Source: Microbulbifer taiwanensis (lineage in GTDB: Bacteria; Pseudomonadota; Gammaproteobacteria; Pseudomonadales; Cellvibrionaceae). From it: DNA of 64,000 bases. The notes beneath the pieces were generated by a model, which had not been told where the DNA came from, did no database searches, and was given only the letters and a program-made list of their open reading frames with translations. The stretch spans positions 1 through 64,000 of the forward strand of contig NZ_JACZFR010000014.1 in NCBI RefSeq assembly GCF_014904815.1, in the 5' to 3' direction. Position numbers and translations under genes: made by a program. The stretch's first letter is position 1; each line of letters begins with the position of its first letter. Below, piece by piece: positions 1-15,492 of this stretch.

Positions 1-66
1 CCGTGGCCGCGATCAGTGTCCGGGCCACCCGGAAAGTCCAATCGCGGCCACGGGCCGCTCCTACAA
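1..66. repeat. REP-like palindromic element upstream of atpG (left end cut)
   Basis: Bases 1-13 (CCGTGGCCGCGAT) and 41-53 (ATCGCGGCCACGG) form a perfect 13-base inverted repeat, followed by GGCCGCTCCTACA-like sequence to 66. The right half matches, in reverse complement, 23 of 26 bases of a segment at 14585-14610 inside the E2 acyltransferase gene. The left end of the element is probably beyond the window edge. It lies between the presumed atpA and atpG. Confidence 0.7.
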
Positions 67-12248: not shown

Positions 12249-13340
12249 ATGCACAAACCCAGAATGCACCTGCTCGCCTCCTTCGATATCGCCCGGTTGC
12301 AGTACCTGGACGAAGAGGGGCGCGCGACCCAGGCGCTGCCGGATTTCGCCACCCCCGATACACTGCAGTCGCTCTACCGGCAGATGACCCTGGCGCGGCT
12401 GGTGGACGATCGCGCGGTCAAGCTGCAGCGCACCGGCCAGCTGGGCACCTACCCTTCCAGCCTCGGCCAGGAGGCCATCGGTGTCGGCGGGGGCGGCGCG
12501 CTGGAAAAGGACGACGTCTACTGCCCCTACTACCGCGAAACCGGCGCCCTGCTGGAGCGCGGTGTCGAAATCGAGGAGATTCTCGCCATCTGGGGCGGCG
12601 ACGAGCGCGGCCAGGATTACCGGCACGCCCGCCAGGACCTGCCCCTGTGCATCCCGATTGCCACCCAGTTGCTGCACGCCGCCGGTGTCGCCTTTGCGCT
12701 CAAGTACAAGCGCGAGCAACTGAATGAGCCGAACCGCGTCGCGGTCTCCTGCGCCGGCGACGGCGCCACTTCCCGCGGCGACTTTTACGAGGCGTTGAAC
12801 CTGGCCGGCGTCTGGCGGCTGCCGGTGGTCTTCGTGGTCAACAACAACCAGTGGGCCATCTCGGTGCCGCACGCGGCCCAGACCGCCAGCAAGACAGTGG
12901 CCCAGAAAGCCATAGCCGCGGGAATTCCCGGACTGCAGGTGGACGGCAACGACGTGATAGCCGTGCGCGCCGCGGTCGCGGACGCGGTGGCGCGCGCCCG
13001 CGACGGCGAGGGCCCGACGCTGATCGAGGCCACCAGCTATCGCCTCTGCGACCACACCACCGCCGACGATGCCGGCCGCTACCAGCCGCCGGGGGAAGTG
13101 GAGGAGGCCTGGCGGCGTGAGCCGCTGTCGCGCCTCGGCAATTACCTGCGCGGCGAGGGCCTGTGGGGCGACGCCCAGGAGGAGGAACTGCAACGGGAGC
13201 TGGCGGAGGTCATGGAGAAGGCGCTGCGCAGCTACACCGAGCGGCCGCGGGACAGGGACACCGCCATGTTTGATCACCTCTATGCAGAGCTGCCGGAGGC
13301 CTTTGTGGAGCAGTACCAACAGCTGGCGGGCCATCAATGA
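12249..13340 (+). CDS. pdhA: Thiamine-diphosphate-dependent 2-oxoacid dehydrogenase E1 alpha subunit
   Basis: Alpha subunit of a heterotetrameric E1 that decarboxylates a 2-oxoacid (pyruvate or branched-chain) and passes the acyl group to lipoyl-E2. It has 363 residues from ATG 12249, chosen because AGAGGA lies 8 bases upstream; a TTG at 12219 would add ten residues of no family similarity. The ThDP motif begins GDGATSRGDFYEALN and ends VVNNNQWAIS. The phosphorylation-loop region (TSYRLCDHTTADDAGRY) is of the bacterial type. It overlaps the E1 beta gene by four bases. The gene symbol is by family; pyruvate versus branched-chain specificity is not settled. Confidence 0.9.
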   Translation: MHKPRMHLLASFDIARLQYLDEEGRATQALPDFATPDTLQSLYRQMTLARLVDDRAVKLQRTGQLGTYPSSLGQEAIGVGGGGALEKDDVYCPYYRETGALLERGVEIEEILAIWGGDERGQDYRHARQDLPLCIPIATQLLHAAGVAFALKYKREQLNEPNRVAVSCAGDGATSRGDFYEALNLAGVWRLPVVFVVNNNQWAISVPHAAQTASKTVAQKAIAAGIPGLQVDGNDVIAVRAAVADAVARARDGEGPTLIEATSYRLCDHTTADDAGRYQPPGEVEEAWRREPLSRLGNYLRGEGLWGDAQEEELQRELAEVMEKALRSYTERPRDRDTAMFDHLYAELPEAFVEQYQQLAGHQ

Positions 13341-14332
13341 GCCAGATCACCCTGGTGGAAGCGGTGACCCTGGCGCTCGCTTATGAAATGCAGGCGGACC
13401 CCAGGGTGCTGGTTTTCGGCCAGGACGTGGGTCTCAACGGCGGCGTCTTCCGCGCCACCGAGGGACTGCAGGAGCGATTCGGTCGCGAGAGAGTGCTGGA
13501 TACGCCGCTGGCGGAAAACATGATCGCCGGAATCGCCGTAGGTATGGCCGCGCAGGGGCTGCGCCCGGTGGCGGAGTTCCAGTTTATGGGCTTTATCTAC
13601 CCGGGCCTGGACCAGATACTCAGCCACGCGGCGCGCTTCAGGAATCGCACCCGCGGGCGCCTGTCCTGTCCCGTCGTCTACCGGGCCCCCTATGGTGGCG
13701 GCATTCACGCGCCGGAACACCACTCCGAGAGTACCGAGGCACTGTTCGCGCATATTCCCGGCCTGCGCGTGGTGGTGCCCTCCTCCCCGGCGCGCGCCTA
13801 CGGTCTGCTGCTGGCGGCGATTCGCGATCCTGACCCGGTGATTTTCCTGGAGCCGAAGCGCATCTATCGCGCCGTGCGCCAGGAGGTGCCGGACAGCGGT
13901 GAGGCGCTGCCGCTGGACCGCTGCTTCCGGCTGCGCGAGGGTGCGGATATCACCCTGATCGCCTGGGGCGCCTCGCTGAAGGAGACACTGGCCGCCGCGG
14001 AGCAGCTGGCCGGCGAGGGTATAGAGGCGGAGGTCATAGATCCGGCCACCCTGAAGCCGCTGGATATCCACGCCGTTATCGACTCGCTGGAAAAGACCCA
14101 CCGCTGCCTGGTGGTACACGAGGCGGCGCGCTTCTGCGGGCTCGGCGCCGAAATTGCTGCACAGATCAATGAATACGCCTTCGACCTGCTGGATGCGCCG
14201 GTGCAGCGGGTGACCGGCTACGACACCGTCATGCCCTATTACCGACTGGAGGACAGTTATATTCCCGGTGTCGAGCAGATACTGGCAGCGGTGCGGGAGA
14301 CCCTGGACTATCCGGACGGGGGGCGGCGATGA
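13337..14332 (+). CDS. pdhB: 2-oxoacid dehydrogenase E1 beta subunit
   Basis: Partner of the preceding E1 alpha, 331 residues, a normal size. Recognisable family segments are VFGQDVGLNGGVFRAT, DTPLAENMIAGIAVGMA, and PVVYRAPYGGGIHAPEHHSE with its double His near the ThDP site; the C-terminal transketolase domain has the IDPATLKPLD motif. The start codon overlaps the E1 alpha stop (ATGA), and its own end overlaps the E2 start by four bases, so the three genes are translationally coupled. Confidence 0.93.
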   Translation: MSQITLVEAVTLALAYEMQADPRVLVFGQDVGLNGGVFRATEGLQERFGRERVLDTPLAENMIAGIAVGMAAQGLRPVAEFQFMGFIYPGLDQILSHAARFRNRTRGRLSCPVVYRAPYGGGIHAPEHHSESTEALFAHIPGLRVVVPSSPARAYGLLLAAIRDPDPVIFLEPKRIYRAVRQEVPDSGEALPLDRCFRLREGADITLIAWGASLKETLAAAEQLAGEGIEAEVIDPATLKPLDIHAVIDSLEKTHRCLVVHEAARFCGLGAEIAAQINEYAFDLLDAPVQRVTGYDTVMPYYRLEDSYIPGVEQILAAVRETLDYPDGGRR

Positions 14333-15492
14333 AGGTCTTCAAGCTGCCCGATTTGGGTGAAGGGCTGCCGGACGCGGTGATCCGCGAGTGGCACGTCGCC
14401 GAGGGAGACAGCATTGCCGCCCACCAGAGCCTGGTGACCGTGGAGACCGCCAAGGCGCTGGTGGAGGTGCCTGCCCCCTGGGGCGGCACTGTGGAGAAGC
14501 TGTTCGCTGCCGAGGACGAGACGGTCAATGTGGGCGAACCGCTGATCGGCTTCACCGAAGCCAGGGCCGGTGAGAAAGCCCCCCCTGTAGGAGTGGCCCA
14601 TGGCCGCGATCGGACTCGCGGCGAAGAAAAGCAGGCCGACTCAGGCACAGTCGTCGGCAGGATCCAGCAGACCGGCGAAGTGCTGGGACAGGAAATAGCC
14701 CCCACCGAAATTTCCCGTCGACTGGCTACCCCGTCGGTGCGCGCCCTGGCCCGTCGCCTGGGCGTGGACCTGGGTGAGTTGCAGCCAAAAGGTGAGCGCT
14801 TCAGCGCCGACGAGGTGCGCGCCGCCGCGGGGCGCAAACCCGCAGTGGAAAAGCGCAAAGAGCCGGCCAGCCCCGACGCCGAGATGTCCCCGGCCCGCCG
14901 CGCCATGGCCATGGCCATGAGTCGCGCCCGCGATGAAGTGGCGCCCATGACTCTGTGCGACCAGGTGGATATCTCCGCCTGGTGGGGGAAGGAGTCCGCC
15001 ACCCTGCGCCTGATTCGTGCGATGCAGCGGGCCTGCGAGGCAGAGCCAAACCTGAACGCCCTCTACGAAGACGGGCGCTTGAACCCTTCGGAGACCATCA
15101 ATATAGGCCTGGCGGTGGACTCGCCCCGCGGTCTCTTGGTGCCGGTGCTGAGGGATGTGGCCGCGCGCTCGGACGGGGCGCTGTTGCAACAGATAGAGGA
15201 CTACAAGGAACAGGCCCACACCAGGGGTATCGCCCAGAGCGACCTGCGGGGCGGCAGCATACTGCTGTCCAACTTCGGCGCCCTGGCCGGCCGCTATGCG
15301 ACCCCGGTGGTACTGCCGCCGATGGTGGCCATAATTGGCGCCGGGCGCACTTTCGAGGGCGTGGTTGCGGTGGACGGAAAACCCGCGGTGCGCGCTTTAC
15401 TCCCCCTCTCCATCAGCGCCGATCACCGCGCCGTCACCGGCGGCGAGCTGGCCCGGTTTCTCGGGGCCATGTTGGATTCCCTCTCTTCGTAG
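14329..15492 (+). CDS. 2-oxoacid dehydrogenase E2, dihydrolipoamide acyltransferase
   Basis: Core acyltransferase of the complex, 387 residues. One lipoyl domain (residues 1-78) has the lipoylated Lys42 in VETAKALVEV. A linker follows, then an E3/E1-binding domain (about 134-170, ATPSVRALARRLGVDLGELQ) and the catalytic domain (about 190-387). The active-site motif reads SADHRAVTGGE: His366 is present, but Thr370 stands where most E2 enzymes have Asp (HxxxDG). The linker segment of residues 86-94 is encoded by a REP-like repeat (14585-14610), and the stop codon lies in another small inverted repeat (15488-15517). No E3 gene follows, so a dihydrolipoamide dehydrogenase encoded elsewhere must serve it. 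Confidence 0.93.
   Translation: MKVFKLPDLGEGLPDAVIREWHVAEGDSIAAHQSLVTVETAKALVEVPAPWGGTVEKLFAAEDETVNVGEPLIGFTEARAGEKAPPVGVAHGRDRTRGEEKQADSGTVVGRIQQTGEVLGQEIAPTEISRRLATPSVRALARRLGVDLGELQPKGERFSADEVRAAAGRKPAVEKRKEPASPDAEMSPARRAMAMAMSRARDEVAPMTLCDQVDISAWWGKESATLRLIRAMQRACEAEPNLNALYEDGRLNPSETINIGLAVDSPRGLLVPVLRDVAARSDGALLQQIEDYKEQAHTRGIAQSDLRGGSILLSNFGALAGRYATPVVLPPMVAIIGAGRTFEGVVAVDGKPAVRALLPLSISADHRAVTGGELARFLGAMLDSLSS
14585..14610 (+). repeat. REP-like half element inside the E2 coding sequence
   Basis: This segment starts CTGTAGGAGTGGCCCATGGC and is 23/26 identical to the reverse complement of 41-66. It is read in frame as PVGVAHGRD between the lipoyl and E3-binding domains, without breaking the gene. 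Confidence 0.75.

Follow-up and report, generated by a model that had tools for sequence, protein, structure and literature searches.

A repetitive extragenic palindrome in frame in the E2 acyltransferase linker of Microbulbifer, and signs of replacement at shared repeat sites

How does a palindromic repeat of a kind found mostly between genes come to be read as part of a protein, and what becomes of it there? The question is raised by a 64,000-nucleotide stretch of the Microbulbifer taiwanensis genome (contig NZ_JACZFR010000014.1, positions 1 to 64,000; the window), in which a repetitive extragenic palindromic (REP) sequence lies within the gene for the E2 acyltransferase of a 2-oxo acid dehydrogenase complex. 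We consider it probable that a single REP of the GTAG type landed in frame in the E2 linker of an ancestor and was tolerated there, and that the occupant of the site has been overwritten at times since. The REP population of this genome, some 147 copies, was probably spread by its own REP-associated tyrosine transposase (RAYT); one REP would have landed in the ancestor, in a frame that remains open, within the variable linker joining the lipoyl domain to the E3-binding domain, where the eight residues it encodes would be harmless, tolerated rather than domesticated. In REP-rich genomes the occupant of the site would occasionally be overwritten by other REPs, through gene conversion or RAYT-driven replacement. 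Such overwriting would keep the stem nearly perfect while the flanks diverge, and would explain why the loop reads CAT in one species and GTT in a close relative (His versus Val).

A GTAG REP family with a copy in the E2 linker

Read directly, positions 14585-14610 of the window (CTGTAGGAGTGGCCCATGGCCGCGAT) agree at 23 of 26 bases with the reverse complement of positions 41-66 (TTGTAGGAGCGGCCCGTGGCCGCGAT), as had been reported in an earlier reading made from the letters alone (the sequence-only reading), and the likeness spans 31 bases (14586-14616 against 35-65). At up to three mismatches the 31-base pattern occurs at only these two sites of the window, and in none of 100 window shuffles. The features concerned are as follows.

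1..13, plus strand: presumed partner REP arm, its last 13 bases, the remainder lost at the contig edge (by eye)
41..64, minus strand: intergenic REP core, one arm of an inverted REP pair (REPIN) (family pattern)
14329..15492, plus strand: E2 acyltransferase gene, 387 aa (gene call and domain match)
14335..14547, plus strand: lipoyl domain, Biotin_lipoyl PF00364, residues 3-73 (Pfam)
14554..14637, plus strand: linker from the lipoyl domain to the conserved DSGTVVG segment, 28 residues (orthologue comparison)
14586..14616, plus strand: extended match (T, core and CGGACT), common to the intergenic element (pattern search)
14587..14610, plus strand: E2 REP core, in frame as VGVAHGRD, residues 87-94 (read directly)
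14722..14796, plus strand: E3-binding domain, E3_binding PF02817, residues 132-156 (Pfam)

Positions 1-66 look like a REPIN with a truncated first arm, since contig C47 begins at the first base of the window. In E2 there is one REP rather than an inverted pair, and its stem holds one G.T pair. Since it encodes residues 87-94 (the sequence-only reading gave 84-98), it lies in the linker, where by the Pfam domain limits it is read in frame after the lipoyl domain and before the E3-binding domain.

The proposed identity as a REP-like repeat is borne out by copy number. In the window's own genome (G000; 4.82 Mb, 115 contigs) the pattern GTAGGAGYGGCCYNTGGCCGCGAT has 147 matches at no more than three mismatches, 73 forward and 74 reverse, against none for a backward control pattern, and the alternative that the match belongs to no repeat family did not hold. 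The consensus and the frame counts below come from the 115 copies that lay in retrieved stretches. It reads GTAG-GA-GCGGCC-NNN-GGCCGC, with a core that hardly varies outside the loop; the loop is CAT in 80 copies, GGT in 18, CGT in five, GTT in five, and one of seven other triplets once each. A T precedes GTAG in 87% of these copies, and a T stands six bases downstream in 80%. The GTAG tag at the palindrome end, the high copy number, the dispersal over many contigs and the location mostly outside genes (67 of the 115 copies have no open frame of at least 120 aa that extends 30 aa on both sides, and 48 have one) are those of the GTAG REP superfamily; in location the E2 copy departs from the rule.

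Four Y1 transposase matches were found in the genome, two of which were named via NCBIfam. The gene at C27:209342-209668 is a RAYT (NF047646, 134 bits against a cut-off of 80); a Y1 transposase on C59 falls narrowly below that cut-off, at 78.9. REPs at 209231 (plus strand, two mismatches) and 209751 (minus strand, no mismatches) bracket the C27 gene, and by its sequence the arrangement fits a REPtron. A RAYT open frame at L128:1426-1920 begins MAAINLAG, which is itself REP sequence (ATGGCCGCGATC...); there the beginning of the transposase either coincides in part with, or derives from, one of its own REPs. At least 11 contigs of G000 (C2, C7, C14, C32, C38, C43, C46, C47, C61, C77 and C104) end about 150 bases or nearer to a REP, and many breaks in the assembly may thus coincide with these repeats.

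Three REP-rich genomes share the E2 copy

All 48 genomes of the genus that we compared have the E2 gene, and three of them carry the REP in it, with zero or one mismatch: G000, G024 and G036. The next-best match anywhere in the E2 genes of the other 45 has five mismatches, and in the comparison with orthologues that the sequence-only reading had proposed as a check, the segment is absent from those 45. The carriers are the three REP-richest of the 48 genomes, with 102 (G000), 288 (G024) and 237 (G036) exact copies of GTAGGAGYGGCNNNNGGCCGCGAT versus 0-38 elsewhere (38 each in G046 and G047, one to four in each of five genomes, and none in 38). In all three the E2 REP has the same strand and frame and lies nine codons before D(S/A)GTVVG.

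Outside the linker, the E2 nucleotides of G000 are 75-76% identical to those of G024 and G036, and codons for the same residue agree at a fraction of about 0.60. Within the REP the two orthologues agree with G000 at 21 and 23 of 24 bases and at eight of eight third positions, and the idea of the same residues encoded by unrelated nucleotides is thereby set aside. The residues across the three carriers are V-G-A/V-A-x-G-R-D, two of the eight varying (Ala/Val, His/Val). At the same gene coordinate as the REP, on its strand and in its frame, the E2 of G020 has a match (five mismatches in 21 scored bases) that could be a decayed copy; for G020 the codon-shuffle fraction is 0.005 (200 shuffles with a longer, 27-base probe, uncorrected for 46 linkers). 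The G008 linker yields nothing, with a fraction of 0.685.

Loop changes at shared REP sites

We compared the REP-bearing stretches of G024 (36) and G036 (32), together with the E2, MnmC and DnaE2 loci. Forty-seven G024 REPs have both flanks aligned in G036, and 35 of these have a partner there in the same orientation. Setting aside the E2 and MnmC pairs leaves 33 orthologous pairs for comparison of the loops (DnaE2 gave none). Loop bases 12 and 13 both differ in 17 of the 33, one differs in three, and neither differs in 13, while the other 22 REP positions differ at 39 of 726 sites (5.4%). Because only 4.7% of sites, and 0.40% of adjacent pairs at both bases, differ across the aligned DNA of these genomes (153,721 columns), the excess of double loop changes is extreme (nominal 1.7e-32). 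The E2 pair is a further double loop change, with GTT in G024 (Val) and CAT in G036 (His).

Eight REPINs occur in both genomes. Their spacer is kept in three (identity 0.88-1.00), with loops unchanged; kept but inverted in one (0.89), with loops changed; unrelated in two, with both loops changed; and intermediate in two. For comparison, among 300 random pairs of the 28 G024 spacers the identity has a median of 0.54 and never exceeds 0.81. In the inverted case (L294:4032 against L262), the spacer is conserved yet inverted relative to its flanks, as if the element had turned over.

The simplest reading of these sequence comparisons is that the address persists while its occupant is replaced by another copy, through gene conversion or RAYT-driven exchange; they suggest that REPs at fixed sites, including one within a gene, are overwritten in a manner resembling conversion. 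More broadly, and as a tentative proposal that falls somewhat short of probable, REP sites in these genomes may endure as addresses while other REPs or REPINs from the same genome overwrite the occupants again and again, perhaps when single strands made by RAYT anneal to the REPs already in place; at an address within a gene, such as the E2 linker, the protein would then be edited as a block.

Several points tell against replacement at persistent addresses. Twelve of the 47 G024 REPs with aligned flanks lack a same-orientation partner in G036 (four have a partner in the opposite orientation only and eight have none). Some REPINs contribute both of their arms to the 33 pairs, which are therefore not all independent, and the 0.40% background comes from alignments in which REPs were unmasked. 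Between G000 and G036, a REP is present in both in seven of ten REP-bearing gaps versus two of nine others (Fisher p 0.07), which is only suggestive of site sharing because the stretches were chosen for holding REPs.

REPs in other genes

The 48 G000 REPs within qualifying open frames correspond to 66 frames, of which 24 frame rows (20 open reading frames, ORFs) were scanned with Pfam in addition to E2, leaving 41 rows unscanned. At least three copies are internal with domains on both sides, in E2, MnmC and DnaE2; this is a lower bound, since 41 rows were unscanned and 115 of the 147 copies were retrieved. A custom coding score proved too strict: of the 115 REPs it picked out two, that in E2 and another that precedes a YhbY domain, and it missed those in MnmC and DnaE2, which emerged from the open frames combined with Pfam. 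The MnmC REP starts from residue 285 of the open frame, between Methyltransf_30 (116-243) and DAO (300-665), and the DnaE2 REP falls near residue 500, after the finger domain (213-378) and before HHH_6 (552-613). The E2 and MnmC REPs share the reading frame VG(A/V)AHGRD; that of DnaE2 reads RSGPWPR. The G036 stretches (105 REPs at no more than three mismatches) yielded 17 frames, spread over 11 ORFs, and the ten ORFs scanned include no internal REP with flanking domains.

Twelve genomes were compared for each of MnmC and DnaE2. The MnmC linker of G024 and G036 holds an inverted REP instead, and no REP was found in that of the nine other genomes (best match six mismatches; G037 was read in the wrong frame and carries no weight). 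REP-derived residues are thus seen in the MnmC interdomain linker of G000, G024 and G036 (L202-L204). The G024 and G036 proteins have a second insert, repeat-like by eye, within an oxidoreductase-domain loop, and MnmC matches with an in-frame stop occur once each in G008:C13 and G015:C2 (TGA, TAG).

The DnaE2 linker carries the REP in G000, in G036 (one mismatch) and in G024, where a longer variant with 15 extra bases, in frame, stands in place of the ordinary one of G036; G018 has a decayed copy (four mismatches). Two further palindromes occur in this linker: CCCTCTCCC..GGGAGAGGG in G000, G024 and G036, and CGTCATTCCGGCG..CGCCGGAATCCAG in G024, G036, G020 and G046, decayed in G008 and perhaps in G000. 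The linker of this error-prone polymerase thus holds up to three unrelated palindrome families in frame, in combinations that vary by species (L214, L216, L218, L219 and L225). Interdomain linkers that are permissive thus accumulate palindromes of more than one kind, which argues for tolerance over domestication. A further in-frame REP lies about 39 residues before the first BatD match in a 659-residue open frame (L011:1-1977), and may sit N-terminal to the real start.

One insertion or two, and why the repeat persists

The most serious competitor to a single ancestral landing is that REPs inserted twice at a favoured target in the E2 linker, independently in the G000 lineage and in a forebear of G024 and G036 before these two split. 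We regard this as unlikely, though deserving real weight, and it arises because the carriers are not clearly a clade. Trees were built for 12 of the 48 genomes, with MnmC excluded. The carriers group together in the tree of RpoB, E2 and DnaE2 (support 62/66), yet they fall apart in the E2 and DnaE2 tree, and the RpoB and E2 trees each split them, the best trees from all three of these data sets setting G000 apart from G024 and G036; a single origin is not rejected (approximately unbiased test, p 0.095 and 0.15), so that carrier clade is neither shown nor rejected. Recurrent target linkers do exist, DnaE2 with its three kinds of palindrome being one. The upstream flank of the E2 REP also differs between carriers: the ten residues just before it are wholly different in G024 and G036, while the downstream side is nearly identical, and other changes thus also occur in the upstream half of the linker (outside the linker, the E2 DNA of these two genomes is 92% identical; L034, L035). 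The agreement at third positions, taken alone, is a modest argument for common descent (0.6^8 = 0.017). Against two insertions stand the identical strand, frame and nine-codon distance in all three carriers and what may be a relic in G020, at the corresponding gene coordinate.

A second alternative is that the REP is retained for a nucleic-acid role in place, as an mRNA hairpin slowing the ribosome between domains or as a gyrase or RAYT site. The stem is nearly intact in all three carriers, and a CT dinucleotide lies five and six bases past the REP core in all three E2 copies; TnpAREP of other species is reported, in the available part of PMC8266576, to cut at CT dinucleotides near REPs, and the CT in E2 is compatible with these copies still being substrates. 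We nevertheless judge the explanation improbable, as 45 of 48 orthologues do without the REP and a constraint on an E2 mRNA hairpin left no signal: predicted RNA folding is no better than that of shuffles in the three carriers (z 0.11, 0.15 and 0.04), and the predicted fold for G000 lacks the REP hairpin.

The sequence-only reading spoke of a domesticated repeat that lengthened the lipoyl arm; on such an account the insert would be retained for some benefit of a longer or altered arm. Its in-frame, near-perfect sequence in three species speaks for this. Linker length does not: across the 46 measurable E2s (G034 and G001 were dropped, their anchors being unmatched) it ranges from 11 to 46 residues, and the carriers, at 27, 27 and 28 against a median of 25 in the other 43, fall inside the genus range, so that no lengthening is visible and arm lengthening was discarded as an explanation. 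Without the eight codons the carrier linkers would have 19-20 residues, likewise ordinary. In addition, two of the eight residues vary among the three species, the nucleotide identity exceeds what selection on the peptide would need, REPs in other linkers use other frames or orientations, and with RNA-fold z values near zero no sign of a selected function emerges. Domestication is accordingly very improbable. The sequence-only reading was right in what it observed and in the identity of the repeat, and insertion into a tolerant linker is the likely account. Chance resemblance or constrained peptide coding, in favour of which nothing was found, has a negligible probability, being refuted by the copy count (147 versus 0) and opposed by the 0 of 100 shuffles and the 45 of 48 orthologues without the REP.

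Relation to known systems

The preferred reading, a tolerated REP whose occupant is at times overwritten, has precedents in part. In the portion available, Di Nocera et al. 2013 (PMC3733652) describe GTAG palindromes contained entirely in ORFs and suggest that these are neutral where they fall in a flexible linker or loop; DnaE2 is one of the intragenic targets that they name, and they report REPs at about the same site in recB of two Xanthomonas species. The E2 case is alike, a palindrome in an ORF and in a flexible linker. Since intragenic REPs were already known, the E2 insertion by itself adds one more example to a type already described, and the rarity on which the sequence-only reading had leaned loses its force. 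The main text of that paper, as far as available, mentions neither Microbulbifer nor acetyltransferase, dehydrogenase or lipoyl, and replacement between species at a site, seen here, was not found in that portion. It also describes the Rickettsia palindromic elements (RPE), likewise short in-frame palindromes in protein genes, though with other sequences and in other hosts; they are likened here by description only.

In the part available of Bertels and Rainey 2011 (PMC3116915), inverted REP pairs are the mobile unit, RAYT genes have flanking REPs, and singlets are derivatives expected to drift. A RAYT with REP flanks is likewise present here; the E2 singlet is near-perfect, unlike the drift expected.

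The replacement signal is the part of this work that would matter and is worth following. A 1988 review by Higgins, McLaren and Newbury reportedly asked in its title whether REPs evolve by gene conversion, an idea that the loop-block data from two close species would support. The question is testable in two close Microbulbifer genomes, which hold hundreds of REPs, many at shared addresses, and a coding address such as E2 comes with its own reporter, since residues of a defined linker change whenever the occupant is overwritten. A literature search on REPs in Microbulbifer gave no paper on this subject, judged by title or start of abstract, and no report of replacement at orthologous REP sites was found in literature coverage that takes in few subscription journals, so that its absence is unproven.

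The E2 gene and its neighbours

E2 is encoded by the third of three genes of the complex, after E1 alpha and E1 beta, and its lipoyl, E3-binding and catalytic domains follow in the order expected of a lipoyl E2 acyltransferase (Pfam), with the lysine in an ETAKA context.

12258..13340, plus strand: E1 alpha gene (gene call and domain match)
13337..14332, plus strand: E1 beta gene, overlapping the E2 start (gene call and domain match)
14875..15477, plus strand: acyltransferase catalytic domain, 2-oxoacid_dh PF00198, residues 183-383 (Pfam)

The usual E2 catalytic motif is HRxxDG. In all 48 E2s of the genus the motif reads DHRAVTG (window 15420-15470), the aspartate being replaced by threonine genus-wide.
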